A stretch of DNA of 64,000 nucleotides from Rhodoferax antarcticus ANT.BR. GTDB taxonomy: Bacteria; Pseudomonadota; Gammaproteobacteria; Burkholderiales; Burkholderiaceae_C. The translations under genes and the position numbers were made by a program. Below the pieces are notes generated by a model. That model searched no databases. It was given only the letters and a program-made list of their open reading frames with translations, and was not told where the DNA came from. The stretch spans positions 62,001 through 126,000 of the forward strand of contig NZ_MSYM01000018.1 in NCBI RefSeq assembly GCF_001938565.1, in the 5' to 3' direction. Positions 1,917 through 4,892 of this stretch are shown one piece after another (the first letter of the stretch is position 1; each line of letters opens with the position of its first letter).

Positions 1917-4892
1917 ATGACAAGCTACCCCCACCTGCTCGCCCCGCTGGACCTGGGCTTCACCACCCTGCCCAATCGGGTGCTGATGGGCTCGATGCAC
2001 GTCGGGCTCGAAGAGGTCAAAGACGGCTTTGCCCGCATGGCGGCGTTTTATGCCGAGCGCGTGCGTGGCGGCGTGGGCCTGATCGTGACCGGCGGCATTG
2101 CGCCCAATGACCGTGGCCGCCCCATGCCTGGCGGTGCAAGGCTGACCACCGAGGCCGAGGCCGACAAGCACCGTATGGTCACCGATGCGGTGCACCTGGC
2201 GGGTGGCAAGATTGCCATGCAGATCCTGCACTTTGGTCGCTACGCTTACCACGACCAGCTCGTCGCCCCCAGCGCCCTGCAGGCGCCCATCAACCCGATG
2301 ACACCCCATGCGCTCAGCACCGAAGAGGTCTACCAGACGGTGGACGACTTTGTACGCTGTGCCGCGCTGGCGCAAAGCGCAGGCTACGACGGCGTGGAAA
2401 TCATGGGCTCTGAAGGCTATTTGCTCAACGAATTTATTGCCACACGCACCAACCAGCGTGATGACGAATGGGGTGGCAGCTATCAAAACCGTATCAGGTT
2501 CCCGCTGGAAATCGTGCGACGCACGCGCGAGAAGGTGGGGGTCAACTTCATCATCATCTTCCGCTTGTCGATGCTCGATCTGGTCGAAGGCGGCTCAACC
2601 CTGGAGGAAGTGATCGAACTTGCCCAGGCGCTGGAAAAAGCCGGGGCCAGCATCATCAACACCGGCATTGGCTGGCATGAGGCGCGCATTCCGACCATTG
2701 CCACCAAGGTACCGCGCGCTGCGTGGGCCTGGGTCACGCAGCAGCTCAAAGGCAAGGTGAACATTGCGCTGGTGGCCACCAACCGCATCAACACACCCGA
2801 GGTGGCCGAGAAACTGCTGGCAGACGGTTTTTGCGACATGGTGTCCATGGCGCGGCCGCTGCTGGCAGACTCCGAGTTTGTCAACAAGGCCGCGCAGGGC
2901 CGCGCTGACGAGATCAACACCTGCATCGGCTGCAATCAGGCCTGCCTGGACCACACCTTTGCCGGCAAAGTGACCAGCTGCCTGGTGAACCCGCGCGCCT
3001 GCCACGAGACGCTAATGCCCCTGACACGCGCTGCGACTGCCGAGAAAATTGCCGTCATAGGTGCGGGCCCGGCGGGCTTGGCATTTGCCACCACCGCCGC
3101 CCGGCGCGGACTGACCGTGACACTGTTTGACAGTGCCGCCGAGATTGGTGGCCAGTTCAACATTGCCAAACAGGTGCCTGGCAAAGAAGAGTTTTATGAG
3201 ACGCTACGCTACTTTGGCAAGCAAATCGAACTCACCGGCGTGCAGTTGCAGCTCAATCACCGCGTCAACGCGGCTGAACTCATCGCCGGGGGGTACAGCC
3301 ACATTGTTCTGTCCACCGGTGTGCTACCACGCACGCCGCCCATTGACGGCATCGACCACCCCAAAGTGTTGAGCTACCTGGACGTGCTGCGCGACAAAAA
3401 GCCAGTGGGCAGGCGCGTGGCGCTGATCGGCGCGGGCGGCATTGGCTTTGATACCGCTGAATTTTTGCTGCATGAGGGCGTGAGCCCGAGCCTGAGCCCG
3501 ATCAAATTCTTTGCCGAGTGGGGCGTGGACACCAGCTACGCCGAGCGCGGCGGGCTCAAACAGGCGCACCTAGAGAAAAGCCCGCGCCACGTTTACCTGC
3601 TACAACGCAAGGCCAGCAAAGTGGGCGACGGCCTGGGCAAGACCACTGGCTGGATTCACCGCACCTCACTGAAGAACCGCCATGTCGAGATGCTGGCCGG
3701 GGTGAGCTACCGACGCATTGACGACGACGGCCTGCACATCAGCATCGGCGGGGAAGACCGCACGCTGGCGGTGGACAACATCATCCTGTGCGCGGGGCAG
3801 GAGCCACAGCGTGCCTTGCAAGCCGAGTTGCTGGCCGCAGGCTGCAGCGTGTTTCTGATTGGCGGTGCCGACAAGGCCGAGGAGCTGGACGCCAAGCGCG
3901 CCATCCAGCAAGGCACCGAACTGGCGATGCGCCTGGGCCAAAGCAGCGCACCTGCCGGTGAGCCAACAAGCGCTTCAACCCCTCATACAGCCGCTGCCCA
4001 GGCCAAGGCGGGTTTATATGACAAATCGACCTCTAGCCCAGGTGAAACAAGCGCGAGTAGCAATAAAAAAGATAGCGCGATGCAGTTTGAAACCCTGACC
4101 GTCAGCCTGGCCGACCACGTCGCCACCATCTGCCTGAACCGCCCCGACAAAGCCAACGCGATGAACCTGGCCATGTGGCACGAGTTGCGCCGCGCCCTCC
4201 AGTGGGTGGACGCCACGCCGCAGGCGCGCGTCGCCATATTGCAGGGCGAAGGCAAAGCCTTCACCGCCGGCATTGACCTGCAGATGATGATGAGCCTGGG
4301 CGACACGATTCAAAACGACTGCGAAGCGCGTACCCGCGAAAACCTGCGCCAGGTCATCCTTGACCTGCAAGACACGCTGACGTCTCTTGAGCGCTGCCGC
4401 AAACCGGTGCTGGCCGCTATCCACGGTGCCTGCGTGGGGGGTGGCATCGACCTGATCTGCTGCGCTGACATGCGTTATTGCTCGGCTGATGCGTCTTTCA
4501 GCATCAAGGAAATCGATATCGGCATGACCGCCGACGTCGGCACCCTGCAGCGCCTGCCCAGGCTCATTGGCGAAGGCATGGCACGCGAGCTGGCCTACAC
4601 CGCGCGCAAGTTTGGCGCCGATGAAGCCTTGCAGATGCGTCTGGTCAACCGCGTGTTTGACTCACGCGAGGCGCTGTACGCGGGCGTGCGTGAAATTGCT
4701 GCAACCATTGCAGCAAAGTCTCCTTTGTCCATAAGGGGTACCAAGGAAATGATCACCTACGCCCGTGACCACTCGGTGGCCGACGGCCTGAACTATGTGG
4801 CCACCTGGAACGCCGCCATGCTGCTCAGCAACGACCTGCAGGAAGCCATGATGGCCACTATGGGACGGCGCCAGCCCGAATTCAAGGACTGA
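1917..4892 (+). CDS. fadH: Fusion: NADPH 2,4-dienoyl-CoA reductase + delta(3,5)-delta(2,4)-dienoyl-CoA isomerase
   Basis: One open frame of 991 residues. Residues 1-672 match FadH over its whole usual length: an old-yellow-enzyme barrel, a 4Fe-4S site (Cys336, 339, 343, 355) and FAD/NADPH-binding folds ([13 protein letters not shown] from residue 377). Residues 722-991 are a crotonase beginning with its own Met (4080). Asp845, Glu865 and Asp873 have exactly the spacing of the three acidic catalytic residues of rat ECH1 (176, 196, 204), within KEIDIG and [10 protein letters not shown]. The isomerase makes the 2,4-dienoyl-CoA that the reductase uses, so the fusion joins consecutive steps of unsaturated fatty acid oxidation. 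The linker (about 673-721) is Ser/Ala-rich and holds a repeat copy. A frame-preserving loss of the fadH stop is likely. ATG 1917 follows AAAAGAGGA; the frame is open back to 1815. Confidence 0.9.
4022..4070 (-). repeat. Interspersed repeat copy 2, in the fadH-isomerase linker
   Basis: Read on the minus strand it shows TTGCTACTCGCGCTTG followed by GGGCTAGAGG, the family cores in order. On the plus strand it is translated in frame as about 16 Ser/Ala/Lys-rich residues between the two enzymes of the fusion. Confidence 0.8.

Follow-up and report, generated by a model that had tools for sequence, protein, structure and literature searches.

A FadH-ECH1 fusion frame in Rhodoferax antarcticus with a linker that appears to carry a translated dispersed repeat

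Organization of the fused reading frame

The window analysed here, a stretch of 64,000 nucleotides from Rhodoferax antarcticus ANT.BR to which all plain coordinates refer, contains on its forward strand the single open frame that the original prediction described as carrying two enzymes. By translation, it consists of 991 codons (1917-4892) and has one terminal stop, which ends at 4892. The protein comprises, in order, a complete FadH-type reductase, a linker of about 48 residues and a complete ECH1-type isomerase. A longer variant of 1025 amino acids, beginning with a GTG at 1815, is present in the mechanical ORF list; the ATG at 1917 fits a FadH start. As judged by eye from the same list, the genes adjoining the fusion are not beta-oxidation genes. 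The features of the locus are as follows.

1917 to 3935, + strand: FadH-type 2,4-dienoyl-CoA reductase part, residues 1-673 (1PS9 match; Pfam Oxidored_FMN and Pyr_redox_2)
3936 to 4079, + strand: linker of 48 codons, rich in Ser, Ala, Thr and Lys (low pLDDT; without Pfam match)
4030 to 4063, + strand: core (34 nt) of the dispersed repeat, inside the translated linker (0 mismatches at 21 defined positions)
4080 to 4082, + strand: ATG at the isomerase start, perhaps a relic, perhaps a start codon that can still be used (from the sequence)
4080 to 4892, + strand: ECH1-type delta3,5-delta2,4-dienoyl-CoA isomerase part, residues 722-991 plus stop (NF004794; 2VRE, 8SK6 and 1DCI; Foldseek)

The reductase part displays the architecture expected of FadH, with an FMN barrel, cysteines at 336, 339, 343 and 355, and a FAD/NAD(P)-binding part (Pfam Oxidored_FMN and Pyr_redox_2). 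Its predicted full length is upheld by the alignment of residues 3-672 with residues 1-670 of the E. coli FadH chain 1PS9 (E = 1.9e-298). Tyr168 and His254, which we take to be active-site residues, and the four cysteines, presumably the cluster ligands, are kept in all 34 rows that have letters at these positions in an alignment of 46 rows. In a Foldseek search with the predicted model, 1PS9 is matched at E = 6.5e-82 with a target TM of 0.91, and within its own genome the fusion is the only full-length FadH among seven matches. The protein is thus like E. coli FadH in its whole-chain match and in its cysteines, Tyr and His, but the E. coli enzyme is a 72-kDa monomer according to the available text of PMC9329746, and the 671-residue 1PS9 chain lacks a C-terminal isomerase.

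Downstream of the linker, residues 722-991 match NCBIfam model NF004794 with 408 bits against a cut-off of 308, and the human and rat ECH1 structures (2VRE, 8SK6 and 1DCI) align with residues 723-991 at E values of 2e-75 to 1e-73. These are also the closest solved relatives (251-257 bits), followed by EchA21 (208 bits) and then by a match at 130 bits. The three acidic residues that had been singled out earlier, D845, E865 and D873, are present, and their spacing of 20 and 8 is gapless against human ECH1; we take the corresponding triad of the rat isomerase to be residues 176, 196 and 204, and assume that the Asp/Glu/Asp triad is catalytic in the ECH1-type part. In the 46-row alignment, all 35 rows that have letters at these positions retain the triad. 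Foldseek pairs the model with 1DCI (E = 1.5e-24) and 2VRE (4e-24) at a target TM of about 0.8, but with an rmsd of 15-17. The isomerase part is like ECH1 (1DCI, 2VRE, 8SK6) over the whole domain and in its Asp/Glu/Asp residues; unlike the solved stand-alone chains, it resides behind FadH. It is the only ECH1-type match over the cut-off among nine matches in the genome. Both enzymes belong to the reductase-dependent route, and the earlier assignment to consecutive steps fits what their families suggest.

The AlphaFold model, built with 46 sequences, is only fair (mean pLDDT 76, pTM 0.61). Linker residues 676-721 are predicted to be disordered, with pLDDT below 50 and block values of 23-26, and a Pfam scan gave no domain match in the linker. 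Values below 50 also occur in other short stretches, including 253-263, around His254, and 337-365, at the cluster, in the FadH part and 868-872 in the isomerase part.

Distribution and ancestry of the fusion

A search for the same two-domain architecture in other genomes, as the original prediction had proposed, found 26 fused loci, so that at the gene level the pair does not occur solely as two genes. Since L012 and L032 share identical FadH and ECH sequences, 25 of these loci are distinct. They belong to a set of 173 FadH-holding loci, which further includes 16 FadH-SnoaL fusions, 26 loci where a gene of one of these kinds is a separate neighbour and 105 without such a neighbour, although some of the latter (e.g. 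L015, L086 and L087) end soon past FadH and a neighbour may be missed. Within the genus, the fusion is found in 17 of 36 genomes, its own included: 15 have one stop-free match across both parts (in three of them a contig end cuts off the start of FadH), and G014 and G020 show it as separate pieces lying in a common open frame. The match in G008 is cut at the end of FadH, and in G012, G018 and G026 (L016-L018) a related FadH stops with no fused isomerase behind it. Named records with the fusion in Rhodoferax are L031 and L032; fused loci from metagenome-assembled genomes are assigned to Thauera (L035, L037), Rhodocyclaceae (L056), Proteobacteria (L034) and a beta proteobacterium (L036).

At the level of the family, at least seven of 399 genomes have matches that span both parts (G000, G024, G010, G141, G283, G179 and G085). 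The last of these (L137:1501-4365) joins FadH to a distant ECH1-like crotonase, with 40% identity by tblastn, a retained triad and an Ala-rich tail; its fusion is apparently separate from the others. In samples of the order (399 genomes, 79 with a match at E 1e-250), class (369 genomes, 38 with a match) and phylum (299 genomes, 60 with a match), at the same threshold throughout, both parts were spanned without a stop only in the genome of origin; fusions involving a distant FadH or crotonase would escape these samples. Further fusions were also sought behind long open frames, and none of 20 fetched regions extends more than seven residues past FadH.

A second kind of partner was observed in the same set. 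In 16 loci a SnoaL_2 domain (PF12680) is fused to the C terminus of FadH, as called by Pfam in two loci (L114:3514-4012 and L123:3514-4005) and by tblastn similarity in the other 14; L039 and L120 of this group are likewise identical. In 23 loci, from Burkholderia, Brevundimonas, some Pseudomonas and others, SnoaL_2 is a separate gene downstream of FadH, and the genome of R. antarcticus has no SnoaL_2 match at E 1e-6. A separate ECH1 lies next in 10 of the 16 FadH-SnoaL fusions; a three-domain FadH-SnoaL-ECH1 protein was considered and rejected, as the frame stops before ECH1 in all 10 of these loci.

The fused FadH sequences do not form one group. In a quick FadH tree of 91 rows, 24 of them fused and 26 drawn from the 105 neighbourless loci, the fused label needs four changes, at least two of which are forced by starred branches; in an ECH tree of 46 rows (25 fused) it needs five, at least three of them forced. 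A FadH tree of 68 rows, with eight neighbourless loci and without five SnoaL-neighbour loci, needs three changes rather than four, and none of these counts separates gain from loss. As input for the trees, X was substituted for stops within tblastn pieces, the identical rows L032 and L120 were removed, and L019, which is too short, was left out of the FadH tree. In AU tests on groups named after the tree was seen, one clade of the 23 fused rows (without L137) is rejected at p-AU = 3e-45; a single fused clade is also rejected without the Rhodocyclaceae group (2e-45) and without L034, L112 and L113 (3.75e-7). In the FadH tree, these three loci are nested inside the FadH-SnoaL group. The fusion arose more than once, or has been lost repeatedly. 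The simplest reading of the sequences is three or four separate joinings, because fadH and ech1 are adjacent genes in unfused relatives, with gaps of 54 nt (L033), 47 nt (L043), 101 nt (L045) and 92 nt (L196). Recurrent fusion of one enzyme pair would indicate, on evolutionary grounds, that its members belong together.

The linker and its dispersed repeat

The 26 fused linkers, which range in length from 57 to 183 nt, contain no in-frame stop in 941 codons, compared with 20 and 78 stops in the other two frames. A stop at the junction, which by the original prediction would have told against the fusion, is seen in none of them. Shuffled linkers have a mean of 31.9 stops and a minimum of 17, and an open spacer by chance can be ruled out. 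Four of the linkers are equally long, and all six pairwise comparisons between them place pN below pS (0.10-0.25 vs 0.31-0.55).

Against its own genome, the linker DNA of R. antarcticus finds many weaker copies of itself, the best at E = 4.7e-9. The 34-nt core at 4030-4063 occurs with three or fewer mismatches in 198 + 213 = 411 copies in the 4.0-Mb genome, compared with 0 for a reversed-pattern control. Read in the fused frame with their flanks, 16 of 20 copies examined would bring a stop, in eight of the 20 within the core itself, and the window copy brings none (the 20 are the first zero-mismatch copies listed rather than a random draw). Fused linkers with at most 5 of 21 core mismatches comprise 14 of the Rhodoferax clade together with L112 (3 mismatches) and L113 (4); the L034 linker has 6 of 21, and the other nine show no repeat. 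None of 2000 shuffles reached the score of those 16 linkers, and 0.2% reached that of L034, where the shuffles are single-base and scored on one strand and each real linker takes the better of two strands. The core fits better reversed in L112 (3 vs 4), forward in L113 (4 vs 5) and equally well either way in L034; the repeat orientation in this clade is ambiguous because the core is partly palindromic. The copy in L112 was also found independently by the pattern search, at 616618-616651 of G283, inside the fusion at 614577-617486.

Seven of the 12 fused genomes that were counted (G000, G024, G005, G004, G010, G283 and G179) are repeat-rich, with 151-411 copies, and have the repeat in the linker; the other five (G003, G021, G009, G141 and G085) hold 0 or 1 copy and have a linker without it. 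With the reversed pattern as control, each genome yielded 0 or 1. In G003 and G021 the repeat has probably decayed, because both lie inside the Rhodoferax clade. Counted in G000 and 13 other genomes, the core is present in 101-411 copies in eight of the family and in 0 or 1 in six. It is this linker that appears to be new here: to judge from the sequences, it contains a translated copy of a dispersed repeat, and the linker of a second, separate fused clade has the same repeat.

The fusion is not the only frame that the repeat may have entered. Counted in the window, three of eight copies lie inside genes (the fusion, a WaaA-like and a WaaC-like gene); the other five are intergenic by eye, and two of these touch mechanical ORFs. 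A WaaC-like heptosyltransferase ORF (34574-35656, - strand), identified through 2GT1 and 6DFE (E = 3e-53), has the repeat at 35116-35149 (- strand), and of 23 WaaC rows of relatives, 10 have the repeat in this very loop, mismatched at no more than 5 of 21 positions, compared with 7-10 mismatches in the other 13 rows. Some congeners (L228-L230, L232 and L233) have a shorter loop without the repeat; no near-identical pair of filled and empty sites was found among the rows. In a WaaA-like Kdo transferase ORF (33156-34655, - strand) the repeat lies at 33779-33812 (- strand), a putative case that is based on the frame, as the alignments with solved relatives leave this position uncovered.

Comparisons can be made with repeats known from elsewhere. 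Rickettsia palindromic elements (RPEs) are about 150 bp long and lie in frame inside unrelated genes, as the available parts of PMC10969869 and PMC3733652 describe. The linker repeat resembles them as a short dispersed repeat in frame within unrelated genes (here the linker, WaaC and the WaaA-like frame), but it differs in having a 34-nt core and in forming part of a two-enzyme fusion linker in two separate clades. The beta-proteobacterial repeat element (BRE), a dispersed repeat of the Comamonadaceae, is about 90 bp long, has at most 29 copies per genome and 69% GC in Bordetella, and is usually intergenic with some copies within genes, according to the available text of PMC3110155. The present repeat is like it in being dispersed in Comamonadaceae with some copies inside genes, and unlike it in that its 34-nt core is present 411 times within a single genome, a comparison made with the description of BRE only. 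No known RNA family reaches its gathering score in the whole 64-kb window. A stable hairpin in the linker DNA was considered and set aside (z of 0.41 here and 0.18 for the L175 repeat copy); the L112 linker has a folding z of -1.46, with 14 of 200 shuffles equally good.

Alternative readings and the proposed role of the fusion

Draft or metagenome assemblies are the source of many fused loci, a point in favour of an assembly or frameshift artefact. The fusion is nevertheless carried by three one-contig genomes (G010 of the same genus, G283 and G179 of other genera), by 14 sequences from the genus or related to it that are 74-89% identical and by the Rhodocyclaceae/Thauera group (L035, L037 and L056), and its presence in independent genomes leads us to reject assembly error, the probability of which is practically negligible. 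With both domains complete and the frame open in these genomes, the predicted FadH-isomerase fusion is genuine. The single frame could still yield two proteins, through an extra start at the ATG at 4080 or through cleavage in a linker that, being predicted as disordered, would be easy to cut. The window copy keeps its junction ATG, so that a second start there is conceivable and a shorter product possible; an ATG lies at codon -2 in L001-L004, L036 and L111 and at codon -6 in L011 and L137. Yet in 13 of the 26 fused loci the 10 codons upstream of the isomerase core are free of ATG, GTG and TTG, and four linkers lack all three throughout. By eye, no GGAG-like or other Shine-Dalgarno-like sequence lies within 20 nt upstream of 4080. 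An own promoter for the isomerase finds no match near the junction, the sole promoter-like match being at 3021-3049, inside the FadH part and within the shuffled expectation of 0.7. We consider two products improbable. A terminator-like match is present in the linker at 3994-4011, one of four such matches compared with 3.5 expected.

A stronger competitor is a fusion that is real but neutral, in which stops of a gene pair were lost by drift and the closeness of the enzymes brings no benefit. Linkers differ in length and sequence, the repeat is unrecognisable in nine of the 26, and the 16 fusions to a SnoaL_2-type domain look as if FadH joined any downstream gene. Against this, several clades show a joining of these two enzyme types, in one case (L137) involving a distant crotonase, and the frame has remained open in all 26 loci. 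A neutral fusion seems to us a serious minority possibility.

Probably, the frame encodes a single protein with two activities, which would degrade unsaturated fatty acids by the reductase-dependent route. We infer that it would retain both activities as a single uncleaved protein and benefit from co-assembly, and that substrate may be handed over directly between the active sites.

For a bifunctional polypeptide of this kind, the C-terminal part would act upstream of the reductase. The compound 3,5-dienoyl-CoA arises when 2,5-dienoyl-CoA is isomerised, and the ECH1-type part would convert this dead end to 2-trans,4-trans-dienoyl-CoA. The gain from co-assembly could lie in equal dose and closeness; ECH1 is a hexamer, and if it stays one in the fusion, a hexameric isomerase core would bear six reductases. 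Such a protein would differ from the situation in E. coli, where FadH converts 2,4-dienoyl-CoA to 2-trans-enoyl-CoA and also serves, alone, even-position double bonds, and where about 10% of oleate ends as 3,5-tetradecadienoyl-CoA or the corresponding dienoic acid, removed by a thioesterase, because the isomerase is missing (available text of PMC9329746). With even-position bonds served by FadH alone, the limitation to odd-position bonds in the original prediction may not apply. According to the available text of PMC12691678, evidence is lacking that E. coli FadH acts on double bonds at odd positions. ECH1 joined to FadH would close this E. coli-type gap in one protein, so that, on paper, a single polypeptide would give these bacteria a route through isomerase and reductase for double bonds of the oleate type, a route absent from E. 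coli.

The fusion probably formed when an adjacent fadH-ech1 pair lost the fadH stop and the frame was kept open through the spacer, with the isomerase start codon now absent in many fused members. For the second clade and the greater part of the Rhodoferax clade, the spacer would have included a copy of the dispersed repeat, which now encodes part of the flexible linker. A bolder proposal, which we hold only tentatively, is that a repeat of Burkholderiales that enters frames in the manner of RPEs supplied part of the fadH-ech1 linker at least twice in separate lineages, and that the fusion is a channelling unit clearing 3,5-dienoyl-CoA. If true, dispersed repeats would be a recurrent source of enzyme fusions; a repeat-derived linker makes it testable whether they create proteins by bridging adjacent genes.

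A search of mostly open-licence literature, by title, found no paper on a FadH-ECH1 fusion among the titles listed, which is weak evidence of absence, and the available parts of PMC12691678 and PMC9329746 do not mention one. An analogy is offered by FadB-type multifunctional proteins, which likewise join a crotonase to the redox enzyme of a neighbouring step (functions of FadB as in the available text of PMC12691678), but which differ in having a hydroxyacyl-CoA dehydrogenase in place of the flavin/iron-sulphur reductase. The reductase half has relatives further afield: Streptomyces FadH sequences (loci among L054-L109) are 63-71% identical, in the best segment, to the FadH of the betaproteobacterial fusion, a likeness that may point to horizontal transfer. 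In FadB-type proteins the order of domains is crotonase at the N terminus followed by hydroxyacyl-CoA dehydrogenase.
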